In this document: piece by piece, positions 19,835-27,178 of the stretch
How positions within the stretch are numbered: position 1 is the first letter of the stretch
Layout of the letters: each line of letters starts with the position of its first letter
Source: Baekduia soli
GTDB lineage: Bacteria > Actinomycetota > Thermoleophilia > Solirubrobacterales > Solirubrobacteraceae
DNA length: 64,000 nt
NCBI RefSeq assembly: GCF_007970665.1
Contig: NZ_CP042430.1
Span: 1,736,001-1,800,000, forward strand
Reading direction: 5' to 3'
Translations under genes and position numbers: made by a program
The notes under the pieces: model-generated
The model's database searches: none
The model's input: the letters and a program-made list of their open reading frames with translations, nothing else
What the model was told of the DNA's origin: nothing

Positions 19835-22800
19835 TCACACGCGGCGGCCGGCCGCGTCGGCGAAGCGGCACAGCATCGTGACCAGTCGCATGTCCTGCAC
19901 CGTCGTGCACCGCGCGCCCAGCAGGGCCGGCGAGCACACCACCACGGCCAGCGCCTGCGCACGCGAGACGGCCACGTTGAGGCGGTTGCGGCTGAACAGG
20001 AAGCCCATCCCGCGCGAGACGTCCTCGCCGCTGGAGCTGGCCATGGAGAACAGGACGACGGGCGCCTCCTGGCCCTGGAACCTGTCGACGGTCCCGACCC
20101 GCGCACCCTCGGGCAGCCGGGCCTTCAGGCAGCGGACCTGCAGGTTGTAGGGCGCGACGACCAGGACGTCGTCGAGCGTCAGCGGGCGCCGGCGCCCGTC
20201 GCGGCCCACGCACGTCCCGCCGTCGAGGAGCAGCTCCAGCTCGGAGGCGATCCGGTCGGCCTCCTCGGGCGACCGGCCGCGGTTGGCCTCGTGCTCGACC
20301 TCGATGAGGCGCAGCCCGTGCCCCGACAGGCCGGGCGAGTCGACCCGCTGGACCTCGCACCCGGGCACGGGGACCAGGCGGCCGTCGTACATCGTCTCGG
20401 AGATGAACCCGCACACCTCGGGGTGCATCCGCCAGGAGGCCGCCAGCAGGACGCCTCGCTCGGGCGGGATCGTGTCGTGGTCGCCGAGCACGTGCTCGAG
20501 CACCGAGCCGCCCGTGCCCAGTGGGTGGGTGCCCTGGCTGACGTGCGCGAGCTGCTGCGGGTCGCCGAGCAGGACGACGCCGCCGGCGGCCTGCGTGGTG
20601 GCGATGGCGTCGGCGAGGGAGACCTGGCCGGCCTCGTCGACGAGCAGCACGTCGACGCTGCGCCGGGCGTCCGCCGACGCCCAGTGCCAGGCGGTGGCCG
20701 CGGTGAGCGCGACGGGGCCGTCCTCGACCGGCGGGCCGGCCTTCCCGCTCGTGACGCGGGCGCTGTCGTAGGCGTCCTCGTCCTTCGCGCACTTCTTCCA
20801 GCCGCGGAAGTCGACGCCGGCCTCGTCGGCCGCCACGTCGACGGCGGCCACGAGGTTGTTGATGGCCTTGTGCGAGGTCGCCATGATGCCGACGCGCCGC
20901 CCGTGGGCCAGCAGGTCGACCGCCAGCCGCGCGCCGGTCCACGTCTTGCCCGTGCCGGGCGGCCCCTGGACGACGAGGACGCTGCGGTCCAGGCCACGGA
21001 CCTGGGCCTTCAGGCGCTCGAGGTCGACCGGGCCGTCGGTCAAAGGCGGCGTGCCCGCGGCGAAGCGCGGCGAGCGGGCCAGCAGCAGGTCGAGGCCGGG
21101 GTCCGGGCGGTCGGTGCCCGCGTCGGCCACGCCCTCGGCGAAGCGGTGCAGCGCGTCGGTCTGGGCGGGCGTGTCGTACGGGCCGGCGGGACCGATCGCC
21201 AGCGGCGCGCCGGTCCCGTGCCGGGGGCCGCGGCGGACCACGACGATGCGGGCCGCCTCGTCGACGGACTCCAGGGTCGCCTCGCGCCCGGCCAGCGGCT
21301 CGTCGACCTTGCCGGGGGTGAGCTTGAACTCCTGCTCGGGGTATCGCAGCGTCCAGACGCGCGAGCCGCGGCCGACCTCCTCGCAGCCGAGCACCTCGAG
21401 GCCGGAGAGCGCCTCGGGGTCCTCGTCGCGGAGCTCCTCCAGGGTCCGCTCGCGCCGCGCGAACAGCGCCCACCACACCGGCTTGGACTCGCGGCGGTGG
21501 TAGCCCGCGAGGTGGAACGCCAGCCGCCGGGCGCGCTGCGCCGCGTCGTCGCCGGACTCGTCGTCGGGCAGGCCCGCGAGCAGGCGGTCGCGCAGGGCGT
21601 CGGTCCGGGCCTGCTGCGCCAGCGCACGGTCCGACCGGGGCCGGGGCTCCTGGGCGGTCAGGACGGCCAGCGGCGCGCCGAACACCCGCTCGACGTCGGG
21701 CCGGCGCTCCAGCAGCCACGCGTACAGCGCCCGCGTGCTGAGGCAGTCGTCCTCGTTGTAGCCCGCGATGCCGTCCAGGTGCGACGGGTCGCCATCCTGC
21801 CCGTAGGCCTGCCAACGGCGCAGCGACCCGATCGCCCCGCGCAGCTCGGCGTCGCGCTGGAAGCCGAAGACCGGCTCGAGCGCCTTGAGCCCGTACCCCT
21901 CGGTCCCGGCGCGGATCGCCTGCCGGGTGATCCCGTAGAGGTCGACGAACACGCGCCGGCGCAGGAGGTCGTCGACCTCGGCCTCGCGCGTGGCGTGGCG
22001 GGCCACCAGGCGCTTGAGCGCGACGGTCTCGTAGGCGTTGTAGTGGAAGACGTGCAGGTCGGGGTAGCGGCGCAGGCGGTCGCCGAGCCAGTCGATCCAG
22101 GTCTCGAACGCCTGCTTCTCCTCGGCGCGTGACGTCGCCCACAGCGCCCGGTAGACCGGGCCGCCGGCCTGCTCGAACACCGTGCCGAACAGGTACTCGA
22201 GCCCGTCGTCGCCCCAGTTGGGGTCGCCCTCGAAGTCGAAGTGCACGTCGCCGGCCGACGGCAGGGGCAGCCGCCCGAGCCCGCGGTCGGCCGCCGGCTC
22301 CAGGAGCTCGTACAGCGGGCGGCCCAGACCGCGGCTGCGCAGCTGCAGGCCGGCCTGCGCGCGCAGGGTCCCCACCGTGGTGCGCGGCACGCGTGGGACA
22401 TCCCGGTCGACGGGCAGCGTCGCCAGCGCGGGCAGGGTGTGCACGCCGGCGGCCTCGAGGCGCAGCCCCTGCGAGCGGTGCACGCCGGCCGTCAGCGAGA
22501 CGTGGTCGTCACGGCGACGGCGCGCGTCGCAGACGTGCCACCAGTGGCAGAACCCGCAGGCGGCCACCTCGTAGGGGTAGGCCGGGACGGCGCCGGGCGC
22601 GCACAGCTCGGCGTGGCGCACGAGGAACGCGGCGCGCACGCGGCCCGCATAGGCCGCGAACTCCTCGGGGCGGAACGACGCCGTGGCGCCGTCGCCCAGG
22701 AGCAGGTGCATCTTCTGCGGCGCGACGCCCTGCAGACGGGCGAGCTCGTCGGTGTAGAAGACCAGCTGGAAGATGTGGCGGGGCTCGGCGTGGCGGCTGA

Positions 22801-23206
22801 GCTTGGCGTCGAAGACCTCGTAGGACCACGCGCCGAGCTCCGACGGCGCGTCGACGCGGACGAGGAAGTCGGGGTAGCCGATCCACCCGTCCCGCAGGAA
22901 GCAGGCCTGGTGCAGGATCTCGCGGCCCTCGGCCATCGCCGCGGCGGTGCGCCGCGCCAGGTCGTCGGCCTCGGCGCGGTCGCCGGCCAGCAGGACGACG
23001 TCGCGGCCGGCGTCCAGGAAGCCCTGCAGGATCGCGTCCTCGTGGCGCATGCCGCGCTCGGACAGGAGCTCGAGGTCCGGCGGCCGGCGGCGCTCGCCGA
23101 GCTCGCCGCGCCGCTCGAGGATGTCGAGGTGGGTGCGGTGCTCGCAGTCCAGGAAGCGCGTGAGCGCGGTGGGGGAGAGCGGGAGGTCGGAGGACGTGGC
23201 GGCCAT
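19835..23206 (-). CDS. TM0106-type RecB-like nuclease/RNase H/SF1 helicase fusion
   Basis: This protein of 1123 residues combines three nucleic-acid domains. The N-terminal RecB/Cas4-like nuclease has PD-(D/E)xK residues Asp113, Asp133 and Lys135 and a QLVFYTDEL motif. It also has four cysteines (Cys21, 217, 220, 226) placed like the iron-sulfur clamp of AddB/Cas4. A central RNase H-like 3'-5' exonuclease domain starts with VHFDFEGDP (about 315) and ends with GYNEDDCLSTRALYAWL. The C-terminal superfamily I helicase has Walker A GPPGTGKT, DEAGQ and VDRFQGQE. It probably unwinds and trims damaged or foreign DNA or RNA-DNA hybrids. ATG 23206 was chosen; an in-frame GTG at 23245 is possible. It ends 13 bases from the convergent TetR gene. 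Confidence 0.82.
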   Translation of the reverse strand: MAATSSDLPLSPTALTRFLDCEHRTHLDILERRGELGERRRPPDLELLSERGMRHEDAILQGFLDAGRDVVLLAGDRAEADDLARRTAAAMAEGREILHQACFLRDGWIGYPDFLVRVDAPSELGAWSYEVFDAKLSRHAEPRHIFQLVFYTDELARLQGVAPQKMHLLLGDGATASFRPEEFAAYAGRVRAAFLVRHAELCAPGAVPAYPYEVAACGFCHWWHVCDARRRRDDHVSLTAGVHRSQGLRLEAAGVHTLPALATLPVDRDVPRVPRTTVGTLRAQAGLQLRSRGLGRPLYELLEPAADRGLGRLPLPSAGDVHFDFEGDPNWGDDGLEYLFGTVFEQAGGPVYRALWATSRAEEKQAFETWIDWLGDRLRRYPDLHVFHYNAYETVALKRLVARHATREAEVDDLLRRRVFVDLYGITRQAIRAGTEGYGLKALEPVFGFQRDAELRGAIGSLRRWQAYGQDGDPSHLDGIAGYNEDDCLSTRALYAWLLERRPDVERVFGAPLAVLTAQEPRPRSDRALAQQARTDALRDRLLAGLPDDESGDDAAQRARRLAFHLAGYHRRESKPVWWALFARRERTLEELRDEDPEALSGLEVLGCEEVGRGSRVWTLRYPEQEFKLTPGKVDEPLAGREATLESVDEAARIVVVRRGPRHGTGAPLAIGPAGPYDTPAQTDALHRFAEGVADAGTDRPDPGLDLLLARSPRFAAGTPPLTDGPVDLERLKAQVRGLDRSVLVVQGPPGTGKTWTGARLAVDLLAHGRRVGIMATSHKAINNLVAAVDVAADEAGVDFRGWKKCAKDEDAYDSARVTSGKAGPPVEDGPVALTAATAWHWASADARRSVDVLLVDEAGQVSLADAIATTQAAGGVVLLGDPQQLAHVSQGTHPLGTGGSVLEHVLGDHDTIPPERGVLLAASWRMHPEVCGFISETMYDGRLVPVPGCEVQRVDSPGLSGHGLRLIEVEHEANRGRSPEEADRIASELELLLDGGTCVGRDGRRRPLTLDDVLVVAPYNLQVRCLKARLPEGARVGTVDRFQGQEAPVVLFSMASSSGEDVSRGMGFLFSRNRLNVAVSRAQALAVVVCSPALLGARCTTVQDMRLVTMLCRFADAAGRRV

Positions 23207-23251
23207 CGGGGACAGGGTCGACCGCCGGGGGGTGGTTCCTGACACCGGCTG

Positions 23252-23558: not shown

Positions 23559-24896
23559 CTACGCCGCGGACGCCTCGCCCGGTCCCAGGACCGTGATCTC
23601 GCCGCCGGCGGCCTCGGGCACCGTCAGCGCCCGCGCGACGCTGTCGATCCCCACGGGCACCGCGAGCTCCTTCTCCGAGGCGGCCCCGAGATCGTCGAGT
23701 CGGCGCAGCTGGGGGAGCACTCGGCCCTCCAGCGAGCCGACCGAGGCGTTGTAGGCCTCGGTCGCCGACGTCAGCTGGCGCCCCACCTTGGCGAAGGACG
23801 CCAGGAACGTCGCGCAGCGCTTGTGCAGCTCCCGGCCGGCGGCGGCGATCTCCAGCGCCGACTGCTCGACCTCAGCCTGGCGCCAGCCGTAGTGGGTGGC
23901 GTGCAGCAGGGCGAGCAGGGTCGTCGGCGTGGCGATGAGCACGCCCTTGCCGGCGCCGCGCTCCAGCAGGCCGGGGTCGCGGTCCAGCGCCGCCACGTAG
24001 CAGGCCTCGTTGGGCACGAAGCACACCACGAACTCCGCGGAGCGCTCGAGCTTGGCGTGGTAGGCCTTCGTCGCCAGCGCGTCGAGGTGGGTGCGCAGCT
24101 GGGCCGCGTGCCGGTCCAGGTGGCGGTCGCGCTCCTCGTCGCCCGTGGCCTCCAGCGCGGTGAGGTAGGCGTCGAGGGGGACCTTGGAGTCCACGACGAT
24201 GTCGCGCCCGGTCGGCAGGTGCACGGTCATGTCCGGGTGCAGGCGCGTGCCCTCGTCGCCGTCGACGGTGACCTGGGTGTGGAAGTCGACGTGGTCGGTC
24301 ATCCCCGCGACGCGCACGACGTTCTTGAGCTGCATCTCGCCCCACGAGCCGCGGACCTGCGGGCGCTTGAGCGCGCTGACCAGCGCGCCGGTCTCCAGGC
24401 GCAGCCGCCCCAGCTCGGTCGCGGTCGTCTCGCACATCTGCCGAACGGTGGCCTGCGTCGCGCGGCGCTCGCGCTCGAGGTTGCGGACCTGGGTCTGCAC
24501 GTCCTTGAGGTGCTCGGCGATGGGCGCCACCGCGGCGGTGATCTCGGCCGCCCGCAGCCGCAGCTCCCCGTTGGCGCTCTCGTGGTCGGCCTTGCGGGCC
24601 TGGGCCGCGAGCTCGGCGACCTGCTCGGTGGCCCCGCGCAGCACCTCGCCCGAGATGGCCTGCATCTCCTGGCGGAACTGCTCGCGGTTGCCCTGCAGCA
24701 GCGCGACCTTCTCGGCCGTGGCGCGCTCGAGCTCGCCGAGGCGCGTGCGGTGCGACGCCTCGGCCTGCTCGTGCAGGCGGCGCTCGGCCTCCAGCGCGGC
24801 GTCGGCGCGGACCTGCGCCGCCCGCGCGGACGCGAGCTTGTGCAGGGTCCCGGCCAGCGCGAGGATGAGGACGACGATGACGGCGAGGGCGAGCAT
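23559..24896 (-). CDS. rmuC: DNA recombination protein RmuC
   Basis: This 445-residue protein starts with a single transmembrane segment (about 1-20), continues as a long coiled coil (about 25-175), and ends in the RmuC nuclease-like domain. RmuC hallmarks are RGSWGEMQLKNVVRVAGM, DMTVHLPTGRDIVVDSKVPLDAYL and FVVCFVPNEACY..A, followed by IATPTTLLALLHA. RmuC restrains DNA inversions and contains a degenerate PD-(D/E)xK fold. The clustering with a helicase-nuclease is consistent with a role in DNA maintenance. The start at ATG 24896 places the membrane helix at the very N-terminus, as in the family. Confidence 0.92.
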   Translation of the reverse strand: MLALAVIVVLILALAGTLHKLASARAAQVRADAALEAERRLHEQAEASHRTRLGELERATAEKVALLQGNREQFRQEMQAISGEVLRGATEQVAELAAQARKADHESANGELRLRAAEITAAVAPIAEHLKDVQTQVRNLERERRATQATVRQMCETTATELGRLRLETGALVSALKRPQVRGSWGEMQLKNVVRVAGMTDHVDFHTQVTVDGDEGTRLHPDMTVHLPTGRDIVVDSKVPLDAYLTALEATGDEERDRHLDRHAAQLRTHLDALATKAYHAKLERSAEFVVCFVPNEACYVAALDRDPGLLERGAGKGVLIATPTTLLALLHATHYGWRQAEVEQSALEIAAAGRELHKRCATFLASFAKVGRQLTSATEAYNASVGSLEGRVLPQLRRLDDLGAASEKELAVPVGIDSVARALTVPEAAGGEITVLGPGEASAA

Positions 24897-24994
24897 GGGA
24901 TGAGGGTCGCGGCAGGCCCGGTCGGTCTGACAGCGAGCTTGCGCACGGGGTCGGGGCTCGGCCCCGGCCGCCGCGCTGCCGATGATGCCGGGGC

Positions 24995-25720
24995 GTGAGC
25001 AGCCTCGACCACAACCGGGGCGCCAAGCGCGCCCGCGAGGCGCGTCGGGCTCTGGGCCTGGACCCCGTCGGGCCGCTGCCCTGCCTGCTCAGCGCCGTCG
25101 AGCAGGCGGCGGGGCTGCCGGTCGTCGTGGCCCGCCTGGCCGCCGGGGTCGCCGGCGCCTGCCACCGCGACGGCGACCGCGCGCTGCTGTGGGTCAACGG
25201 CCTGGAGTTCCTGCCGCGCCGGCGCTTCACGCTCGCCCACGAGCTCGGGCACGCGTGGTGCCGCCACGACGGCACGCTGGCCGTCGACACCATGGCCACG
25301 CTCAACGGCGGCACGACGAGCCCGCACGAGATCCAGGCCAACGCGTTCGCCGCCGAGTTCCTGCTGCCCCGCGCGGCGATGGAGGAGCTCGTCGTCGACG
25401 GCGAGCCGGGCCTCGACGAGGTCGTCGTGATCGCCGCGGGCTTCGGCGTGAGCGCGCTCGTCGTGCTCTACCGCCTCAAGCAGCTCGGGCTCGCGGGCGC
25501 CCGCCGCATCGAGGCGCTGCAGGCCGAGATCGCCGAGGGGCTGCACACCGACGCGTTCGCGCGCCTGCGCCTCACCGGCCCGGCCGACCGCCTCGCGGCC
25601 ATCGCGACGCTGCCCTACCTGTCGCCCGCGCTGGCCGGCACCCATCTGGAGGCCGCGCTGCGCGGGGAGGCCGCGGCCGACGACGCGCTGGCCGGCGCGA
25701 TGGCCCGGCTGCTGGCCTAG
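24995..25720 (+). CDS. ImmA/IrrE-family metallopeptidase
   Basis: This 241-residue zinc peptidase has the gluzincin motif HELGH at 82-86 and the third-ligand helix EIQANAFAAEFLLP (about 112-125), both diagnostic of ImmA/IrrE. Such proteases cleave XRE-type repressors or anti-sigma-like proteins in response to DNA damage or stress. It starts at GTG 24995. It faces, 49 bases away, an operon encoding an HTH protein and a sigma factor, which are obvious candidate substrates or partners. The C-terminal about 80 residues are helical and not assigned. The partnership is inferred from gene order. Confidence 0.83.
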   Translation: MSSLDHNRGAKRAREARRALGLDPVGPLPCLLSAVEQAAGLPVVVARLAAGVAGACHRDGDRALLWVNGLEFLPRRRFTLAHELGHAWCRHDGTLAVDTMATLNGGTTSPHEIQANAFAAEFLLPRAAMEELVVDGEPGLDEVVVIAAGFGVSALVVLYRLKQLGLAGARRIEALQAEIAEGLHTDAFARLRLTGPADRLAAIATLPYLSPALAGTHLEAALRGEAAADDALAGAMARLLA

Positions 25721-25769
25721 CTGAGGTGCCTCGGACTTGGCGGACACCCAGAGGCCGCGCGCCCGGCCC

Positions 25770-26423
25770 TCACGCGTCGGGCCCGCCCGTGAACAGCCGG
25801 TCGACCTCGTCCATCGCGGCCGGGGCCGGCGACAGCGCCGCGCGGCTCAGCGCGGCGATGTCGGCCGCGACCTGCGCGGTGGCGTCGCCCTCGGCCCGCA
25901 GCAGCGTGCCGCCCGCCGGCGCCGCGCGCAGGCCGCGGCCGAAGCCCGCGGCGTCGGCCAGCGTGCCGGGGCTGGCGCCCAGGAGGTCGCCGAGCGCCTC
26001 GAGCAGCCGGCGCGACACGCGCGTGGGCTCCAGGCCGCCCTGCTCCAGACGCCCCAGGTACTCGGCGGTGCGCGGCTCGTCGCCGCGGTCCAGGCCCAGG
26101 CGCGCCACGAGCCGCGCCGCGACGTCGGCGATCGACAGGCCCCGGCGCGTGCGCAGCGCGGGCAGCGTGGAGGGCCACAGGCCGGCGTCGTCGCCGGCGG
26201 CGCCGAGGACCCGGGCCACGACGGGCTCGGCCCGGACCGCCGCCCGCGCGGCGTCGTCGAGGTCGGGGGTGGGCGCCAGCTCCAGCCACGTCGTGATCCG
26301 GTCGGCCAGCTCGTCACGGGCGGGGCCCTCGGGCACGCGTGCCAGGTGGTCCCGCACCCGCGGCCGCCGGCCGGCGTTCCACGCGTCGATGAACGCGCCG
26401 AGGACCTGATCGGTGGTGCTCAT
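25770..26423 (-). CDS. XRE-like HTH protein, partner of the upstream sigma factor
   Basis: This 217-residue protein begins with an acidic/aliphatic helical region (about 1-90: FIDAWNAGRRPRVRDHLARV, DELADRITTWLELAP). A helix-turn-helix follows with LRTRRGLSIADVAARLVARLG and YLGRLEQGGLEPTRVSRRLLEAL (about 92-150), a split XRE-type motif, and then a helical tail. Its ATG overlaps the sigma gene's TGA (ATGA), so the two are made together. With an ImmA/IrrE protease converging on it, it could be the protease-sensitive regulator or an anti-sigma-like partner. The N-terminal part is unlike known anti-sigma families, and no direct evidence exists. Confidence 0.6.
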   Translation of the reverse strand: MSTTDQVLGAFIDAWNAGRRPRVRDHLARVPEGPARDELADRITTWLELAPTPDLDDAARAAVRAEPVVARVLGAAGDDAGLWPSTLPALRTRRGLSIADVAARLVARLGLDRGDEPRTAEYLGRLEQGGLEPTRVSRRLLEALGDLLGASPGTLADAAGFGRGLRAAPAGGTLLRAEGDATAQVAADIAALSRAALSPAPAAMDEVDRLFTGGPDA

Positions 26424-27022
26424 GTGTCGTAGTCCTCCCTAAGCCGCTTGAGGTCCTTCATGCCGCGCGACCGCCGCTGGTAGGCGTTGTCGGCGGTGAT
26501 GCCGAGCTCCTGGGCGATCTCCGGCACCTCGGCGCCGTGGAACGTGAGCTCGAGCACGCGCCGGCGCTCCTCCTTGACCTGCGGCAGCGCCCACTCCAGG
26601 AACGCCCGCACATCGTCGCGGCGCTCGGCCTGCTCGAGGCGCGCACGGGCGGCGTCGGCCTCCCAGACCGCCGCGGTCCCCGGGTCGGCCGGCGTCAGCG
26701 AGGGGCCCTCGTGGCGGTGCTCGCGGACCGACCGGCGCTGGACGTCGATGCAGATGCCGCGCGCCAGGGTCTTGCAGGCGTTGACGAGCTCGCCGGTCGA
26801 GACGCCCGCGAACGTCGTCATCAGGTTGGTCGAGAAGCGCGCCATGGCCATGCCCACGGCCACCTCGTGCTCGTCGTCGTCCAGGCGGCCGCGGTGCGCG
26901 GCGTAGACCAGGCCGTCCATGCGATCGAAGAAGTCGATCACGAGCTCCTCCCAGCAGCGGCGCATGAGCGCCCCGTCGTCCCGGTCGCGCGCGGCCACGA
27001 ACCGCCGCAGGTGCTCATCCAC
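26420..27022 (-). CDS. ECF-like RNA polymerase sigma factor
   Basis: This 200-residue protein has a region 2-like helical N-terminus (about 1-100, with RRCWEELVIDFFDRMDGLVY and ELVNACKTLARGICIDVQRR). A C-terminal region 4 helix-turn-helix follows (KEERRRVLELTFHGAEVPEIAQELGITADNAYQRRSRGMKDLK). Length fits an extracytoplasmic-function sigma factor. GTG 27022 follows GGGGAG and starts the conserved part; in-frame upstream codons are low-complexity. It is translationally coupled (ATGA) to the XRE-like protein. It diverges from the GIY-YIG-like gene across 169 bases. No target promoter can be recognised. Confidence 0.75.
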   Translation of the reverse strand: MDEHLRRFVAARDRDDGALMRRCWEELVIDFFDRMDGLVYAAHRGRLDDDEHEVAVGMAMARFSTNLMTTFAGVSTGELVNACKTLARGICIDVQRRSVREHRHEGPSLTPADPGTAAVWEADAARARLEQAERRDDVRAFLEWALPQVKEERRRVLELTFHGAEVPEIAQELGITADNAYQRRSRGMKDLKRLREDYDT

Positions 27023-27178
27023 GTGTCTCCCCACGCCGGGTGTGTCGCTGCGCGCCGCCACGTCCTGACACTCTCGCAGCGGATCGCGCCGGCGTGGACG
27101 GGGCACGGCAGGTCGGACGATGGGTCGGCACGGGGGAGGGTCGCACGGGGCGCGACGGGCCTGACGCCCCCGGCCCCG

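Follow-up and report, generated by a model that had tools for sequence, protein, structure and literature searches.

How is an extracytoplasmic function (ECF) sigma factor held in check when the gene coupled to it encodes a helix-turn-helix (HTH) protein rather than an ordinary anti-sigma factor, and when a metalloprotease gene converges on the pair? The locus that raises this question lies in Baekduia soli (GCF_007970665.1, contig NZ_CP042430.1), where we analyzed the forward strand from 1,736,001 to 1,800,000, a stretch of 64,000 nt that lies within one contig of 5.2 Mb and is called the window below; genomes and loci carry our own G and L numbers. The protease belongs to the M78 (ImmA/IrrE) family and the HTH protein has an XRE-type domain. 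We think it rather probable that the three genes form one switch, in which an autoregulated ECF sigma factor would be held by a soluble anti-sigma factor that the M78 protease cleaves, probably upon DNA damage.

The sigma-HTH-M78 triad and its conservation

The first-pass annotation of the locus had described an ECF-like sigma gene coupled through ATGA to an XRE-like gene, an ImmA/IrrE protease with an intact HELGH converging on them from 49 bases away, and no ordinary anti-sigma gene, and this description has held. The sigma stop and the HTH start overlap in the ATGA at 26420-26423, and the stops of the protease and HTH genes are separated by 49 bases (25721-25769). The sigma protein is matched by Pfam Sigma70_r4_2 (E=4.8e-7) and TIGR02937 (E=2.5e-9), and the profile of its family (A6, positions 23-191) spans both domains of solved ECF sigma factors in the PDB, with a best E of 1.8e-23; with region 4 recognized by Pfam and regions 2 and 4 by the profile, the protein is an ECF sigma-70 factor. 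A longer start at GTG-27250 was discarded, as it would read through the conserved promoter described below and overlap the start of the neighboring gene. The protease matches Pfam Peptidase_M78 (E=3.9e-19), its HELGH is encoded at 25238-25252, and H82, E83 and H86 of the HExxH motif, Glu112 and Arg75 are invariant in 70/70 aligned proteins. Its AlphaFold2 (AF2) model has a predicted local distance difference test score (pLDDT) of 92.6 and is closest in Foldseek to CapP (E=8.9e-7) and then IrrE/PprI (7.9e-5 to 1.5e-3), and the protein also matches the PADLOC capP profile (E=3.8e-23). With the HExxH motif, a third ligand and the M78 fold, it is an M78 protease; roughly 75 residues past the M78 domain are modelled as short helices with falling confidence.

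The HTH protein has a single Pfam match, HTH_31 (E=8.3e-6, slightly below the Pfam cut-off), a family found in 14 of 89 relatives, and no Pfam anti-sigma family. Its XRE fold is supported by the AF2 model (mean pLDDT 91.7), which consists of an N-terminal helical domain (residues 1-76), the XRE domain (about 78-161) and C-terminal helices and tail. The comparison with VIA-align, which covered in effect residues 78-176 and left the N-terminal domain outside, matched the XRE domain with SinR (Z 9.0), the N-terminal domain of CapH (8.8), DdrO (8.0) and the DNA-binding domain of ImmR (7.9). Searched against the PDB, the HTH family profile returned designed helical proteins and otherwise only weak matches, and a search of the named genomes with the HTH protein gave no result.

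Co-occurrence of the three genes in relatives had been set beforehand as one test of the annotation's proposal, and the genes do co-occur. Of the 201 genomes of the order, 69 have a homolog of the HTH protein; the count is 90 of 299 in the class, some of these being short matches confined to the XRE part, and 27 of 396 in the phylum set, where the only full-length match outside the class was in G471. From the places so listed we examined a subset chosen solely by the HTH match, with 60 regions for the order and 40 for the class and phylum. A sigma gene lies directly upstream of the HTH gene on the same strand in 57/60 and 36/40 regions, and an M78 gene lies at most 700 bases downstream in 49/60 (30 co-directional, 19 convergent) and 34/40 (27 co-directional, 7 convergent). 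The exceptions for M78 are eight contig ends, six regions with the M78 gene further off, L094, which has none, and two generic HTH matches (L120, L207). Among those for sigma are L113, which has no sigma gene, a contig end (L101) and three regions with the sigma gene further upstream (L175, L187, L202). In nearly all loci the HTH gene could start a few bases from the sigma stop, and the usual arrangement of the module is a sigma-HTH-M78 operon; a convergent protease, as in the window, is the form found in most of the window's own family and in family f10. This co-occurrence exceeds chance, because the 5.2 Mb window genome contains only two M78 genes and yet the triad is kept through the class.

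Phylogenies suggest that the partnership persisted while the protease was exchanged or changed fast. In the tree of 70 proteases, which needs three changes of orientation, the window-type proteases are set apart by a branch of 1.47 changes per column (100% support), whereas in the tree of 68 HTH proteins the window-type loci form one clade on a branch of only 0.28, beside L070 and L071; it is this contrast that speaks for one module kept through a change of protease. Identity to the HTH protein of the window is 46% in L070, 45% in L071 and 45% in L068, and identity to its protease is 28-30% in L070 and L071, which carry the other protease group, against 42-43% in L068.

Some further features of these loci were recorded. 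In L070 (4938-5225) and L071 (7220-7528) a short sigma-like fragment, perhaps a duplicated domain, lies directly 5' of the triad sigma gene. About 500 bases, room for one gene, separate sigma and HTH genes in L175 (outside the class), L187 and L202. Second sigma-HTH pairs are present in G164 (L104, the first being L061) and G021 (L086, the first being L074). The other M78 gene of the window genome (G000, C1 2105709-2106062, L216) lies inside an open frame of 432 codons.

Predicted cleavage site, promoter and regulon

The lowest confidence in the HTH model falls on loop residues 171-180, which join the XRE domain to the C-terminal helices. All 89 aligned homologs have in this tail an Arg one or two places past a hydrophobic or aromatic residue (one residue between in 59, adjacent in 30), and the flanking linker varies in length and sequence. 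We predict this invariant Arg, Arg176 in the window, as the P1' residue of a cut by the M78 protease, because PprI cuts DdrO between Leu108 and Arg109, as excerpts of PMC4374696 state. The protein ends in a DExDxLF motif, and DxLF is present in 79 of 92 complete tails.

Gapped-word enumeration over 94 sigma upstream regions found GTCAG-N17-CGAC in 36, where no word exceeded 10 in five shuffled sets. The position matrix, (T/C)GTCAGA(T/A)-N14-xCGAC(C/T), is found mostly close to the sigma start with unrelated spacers; 59 of the 94 regions score over the 99% shuffle level, although the matrix was trained on those regions and the count is not independent. GTCAG is replaced by GTAAG at several of the loci from the wider class. 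The element looks like a promoter with a complete -35/-10 pair and no further conserved box, and since it is conserved upstream of the sigma genes, the sigma factor most likely drives its own operon together with the nearby repair genes. The copies in the window are included in Table 1.

Table 1. Coordinates of the triad, its predicted sites and the predicted target genes in the window
Feature	Position	Strand	Remarks
ECF sigma factor gene	26420..27022	-	200 amino acids; GTG start at 27022
HTH gene, proposed cleavable anti-sigma factor	25770..26423	-	217 amino acids
M78 (ImmA/IrrE-type) metalloprotease gene	24995..25720	+	GTG start; 241 amino acids; convergent with HTH and sigma genes
T-L-L-R codons, HTH residues 173-176	25896..25907	-	Proposed cut before Arg176; loop mean pLDDT 59
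D-E-V-D-R-L-F codons, HTH residues 205-211	25791..25811	-	Conserved C-terminal motif; DxLF in tails
Conserved sigma-operon promoter, GTGTCAGGA-N14-GCGACACA	27041..27071	-	21 nt ahead of sigma start
Promoter copy before rmuC	24906..24932	-	Ends 9 nt ahead of rmuC
Promoter copy before nuclease-helicase gene	23217..23244	-	Ends 10 nt ahead of gene
RmuC, predicted sigma target	23559..24896	-	Pfam RmuC E=1.4e-88; promoter copy upstream
RecB-like nuclease-helicase, predicted sigma target	19835..23206	-	Pfam RNase_H_2 and AAA_12/AAA_30; promoter copy upstream

The pattern TGTCAGRN{15,17}CGAC occurs 8 times across the window genome and the reversed pattern, as a control, once. This locus accounts for three of the eight sites, before sigma, rmuC and the RecB-like nuclease-helicase gene, and a fourth precedes an HD/OB-fold protein, probably a nuclease, at 13 nt from the first ATG and 52 from the called start. 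Only 1.6% of strand positions in the window lie 5-40 nt before a gene start, and 3 or 4 of 8 sites would fall there by chance with p=2.2e-4 or 4.4e-6. Summed over 26 relative genomes, a set that includes G074, for which no HTH match was reported, there are 202 sites against 51 for the control, an imperfect control, as it is surpassed twofold even in genomes without the triad. The sites also differ in position: 21/48 in six whole triad genomes lie 3-45 nt before a called gene, against 6/40 fetched from eight triad-less genomes, three of them incomplete (Fisher p=0.003).

The genes behind such sites recur among genomes. The RecB-like nuclease-helicase gene has the promoter in the window, G197 and G169 (10 nt upstream in the last), a RecC gene in G021 and, as a variant site, in G061, a gene for an AddB-like PD-(D/E)XK protein in G068 and G071, and the HD/OB protein gene in the window genome and G093. 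For ssb the promoter stands about 110-126 nt away in three genomes of one genus (G093, G144, G190) and 53 nt away in G041. Also preceded by it are the gene of a VWA protein in five genomes (one through a variant site), that of an ARPP-1 protein in several (some through variant sites), and those of a TPR protein and a small protein starting MWL, each in several; Pfam gave no match for the MWL-type protein. A RecB-like target in L074 was dropped, as the called gene there encodes a small MWL-type protein. In L366 (G023 2432200-2446500), about 30 kb from the triad, five promoter copies stand within about 8 kb before VWA genes and genes of unknown function.

Proposed switch, related operons and rival readings

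In the switch as we propose it, the ECF sigma factor would drive, from TGTCAGA-N16-CGAC, its own operon as well as a small group of genes, several of which encode nucleases or other recombination proteins. The HTH protein, made by coupled translation from the sigma message, would bind the sigma factor and block its access to RNA polymerase; this contact would most likely be made by the N-terminal helical domain of the HTH protein, alone or together with the C-terminal helix. The M78 protease would be activated, probably by single-stranded DNA (ssDNA), since its fold is nearest to CapP and PprI, both of which are ssDNA-activated. Active protease would then cut the HTH protein before the invariant tail Arg, and the sigma factor so released would amplify itself and the repair genes. 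The first-pass annotation had proposed a protease-switched sigma module; this has gained a conserved triad, an invariant Arg site and a promoter of its own, while contact between sigma and HTH protein and the cleavage itself are steps that we infer. No natural in-frame fusions of sigma with HTH or of HTH with M78 were found.

Operons of similar layout occur outside the class. A scan run in reverse, starting from the protease, kept 80 loci, including L225 and L230 of Thermoleophilia. A sigma gene stands upstream of the matched M78 gene in Clostridia (L277, L290, L297) and in the planctomycete Fimbriiglobus (L301), and upstream of a second M78 gene in Terriglobia (L303). In the sigma / small protein / M78 operons of L277 (4941-6633), L301 (4614-6351) and L303 (8001-9773), the middle gene overlaps or abuts both neighbors and its product matches no Pfam HTH family. 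Of these XRE-less proteins, those of Clostridia and Terriglobia retain an Arg past hydrophobic residues, within NFRS in the former, where an acidic hydrophobic tail is also present, and within LTLAAR in the latter. The HTH N-terminal domain had no match among the Clostridia middle proteins, and its match to the planctomycete one (i-Evalue 0.0004 in a four-sequence search) is too weak for use. Searches for homologs of the Terriglobia and Clostridia proteins in viral contigs, and of the planctomycete protein in plasmids, found none.

The Terriglobia middle protein has relatives on 11 plasmid records, and in all six that were opened a gene, a small protein gene and an M78 gene stand in a row, as in L408 (2399-4184), L410 (1923-3660) and L413 (1948-3693), where a sigma-like gene and a gene for a protein with the LAAR motif precede M78. 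The first gene is annotated as sigma-70 in Azospirillum, and seven such first genes aligned together are weakly sigma-like (Sigma70_r2 in 3/7, best E=0.00085; SigH E=0.0075); the Arg of the LTMAARNG motif is invariant in 7/7 aligned middle proteins. Three of the six opened copies adjoin ubiquitin-like genes or genes of the cyclic-oligonucleotide-based anti-phage signaling system (CBASS) type: those of Cereibacter, with a SAVED gene, and Roseivivax are divergent from a CBASS-type nucleotidyltransferase gene, and that of Celeribacter adjoins multiubiquitin and E2 genes. The plasmid trios are possible sigma-based controllers of immune operons. Weak matches to the capH model were given by four of the seven (best 8.6e-5), and capP is matched by the Cereibacter protease with 3.2e-67, similarities that link the module to CapH-CapP.

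The XRE-less versions argue that sigma inhibition, and not operator binding, would be the common function. Because of them, and because no operator palindrome is enriched in the 94 sigma upstream regions (the best in 7, against 5 in shuffles), we favor an HTH protein that restrains the sigma factor itself rather than its promoter. The HTH protein could instead be a DNA-binding repressor of the DdrO/CapH type, sitting on the sigma promoter and perhaps on the target promoters, with the sigma gene as the first amplifier derepressed when M78 cleaves it. We rate this as unlikely, though deserving attention: the XRE domain is well formed and near the DNA-binding domains of SinR, CapH and DdrO, and the M78 substrates DdrO and CapH are DNA-binding repressors in the excerpts of the papers cited here, but no palindrome stands out where the conserved element is a promoter, and the operons of similar layout in other phyla have middle proteins without a match to any HTH family. 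It is improbable, to our mind, that the sigma factor has in the HTH protein a partner, either co-activator or targeting subunit, whose destruction by the protease ends the response. A sigma-HTH complex reading promoter DNA would be in keeping with the tight gene overlap and the XRE domain; the promoter, however, looks like a full -35/-10 pair with no additional conserved box, and cleavage switches the response on in the PprI and CapP systems as far as the same excerpts go. That the protease is a mere neighbor, functionally unconnected to the sigma-HTH pair, we consider very improbable. In the window it is encoded on the opposite strand and hence outside the operon, but M78 is adjacent in 49/60 and 34/40 regions in both orientations, in a genome with only two M78 genes.

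Several observations weigh against the anti-sigma switch or narrow it. A docking site or a structural element would likewise account for the invariant Arg, and the argument from the XRE-less operons is limited in that their homology to the Thermoleophilia HTH protein is a candidate only. For the regulon, the 23 genomes in which no HTH gene was detected also exceed the control (136 against 66 sites); the excess per genome is small, the genome-wide enrichment is modest and single matches are mostly background. The 21 sites of the positional test include 6 sigma promoters, and with the sigma sites left out the contrast is weaker, at 15/40 against 6/40; rmuC was found as a target in the window only. 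Another sigma factor may share the TGTCAG-N17-CGAC promoter; a recC-like gene of G005 (L420), a genome of the same genus with no detected HTH gene, has the promoter 14 nt upstream. Of the 201 genomes of the order 187 carry LexA, that of the window among them, so DNA damage is already served by a regulator, and the idea of the triad as a substitute for SOS was discarded.

It is established that M78 proteases cleave DNA-bound repressors and thereby free promoters. If the proposed switch is right, cleavage of a soluble inhibitor by these enzymes would free sigma factors too, without membrane proteolysis or phosphorylation; for a class whose stress responses are little studied, a DNA-damage regulon would be predicted in which promoter and cleavage residue are both named; and there would be a hint of how some plasmid-borne immune operons turn on. 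More tentatively, as a possibility in which we have less than even confidence, an ECF sigma factor, a soluble cleavable anti-sigma factor and an M78 protease may make up a general cytosolic sigma switch in at least five phyla. It would be triggered by ssDNA and serve LexA-independent recombination genes in Thermoleophilia, it would guard CBASS and ubiquitin-like immune operons on proteobacterial plasmids as a sigma-based counterpart of CapH-CapP, and the XRE domain would be optional.

Comparison with known systems

In the titles and abstract openings of open-access PMC papers, a scope that leaves subscription papers and preprints mostly outside, we recognized no description of a sigma-HTH-M78 triad. 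The DdrO-IrrE/PprI system resembles the locus in its M78 protease, an XRE-domain protein as likely substrate, a proposed cut before Arg and a link to DNA-repair genes, and differs in that the Deinococcus system has no sigma factor and DdrO is an operator-binding repressor. According to excerpts of PMC10904395, PprI is activated by ssDNA, which is bound by Arg85 with a contribution from a GAF-like domain, and Arg118 in the cleavage loop of Deinococcus geothermalis DdrO touches ssDNA in a modelled complex and is required for cutting with ssDNA. Arg75 of the window protease lies seven residues ahead of the first HExxH His, as Arg85 does in PprI, a likeness of spacing only. Unlike PprI, the window protease seems to have little room for a GAF-like domain in the about 75 residues after M78, although a missing match is no proof.

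CapH-CapP is reported to control immune operons, with ssDNA-activated CapP cleaving the repressor CapH and DNA damage as the signal (excerpts of PMC13373217). The window protease is like CapP in profile and fold, and its HTH partner is predicted to be cleavable as CapH is; however, CapH-CapP has no sigma factor, and the output in the window is apparently a set of chromosomal repair genes. The window has no adjacent immune operon but rather rmuC and the RecB-like gene with their promoter copies, and in PADLOC the window HTH protein matched no family, with capH weakly matched by 2 of 89 relatives (best E=0.0036). An XRE protein and an M78 protease are also paired in ImmR-ImmA of ICEBs1, which resembles the locus in this and controls an integrative element without a sigma factor. 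Classical ECF sigma factors are autoregulated, encoded with a membrane or zinc anti-sigma factor, and freed by site-1/site-2 or Clp proteolysis. The partner in the window differs from those anti-sigma factors in being an XRE-domain protein with no anti-sigma Pfam family, and the protease in being an M78 enzyme encoded adjacently. With the classical pairs the locus shares an autoregulated sigma factor that is encoded with its presumed inhibitor and, as predicted here, relieved of it by proteolysis.
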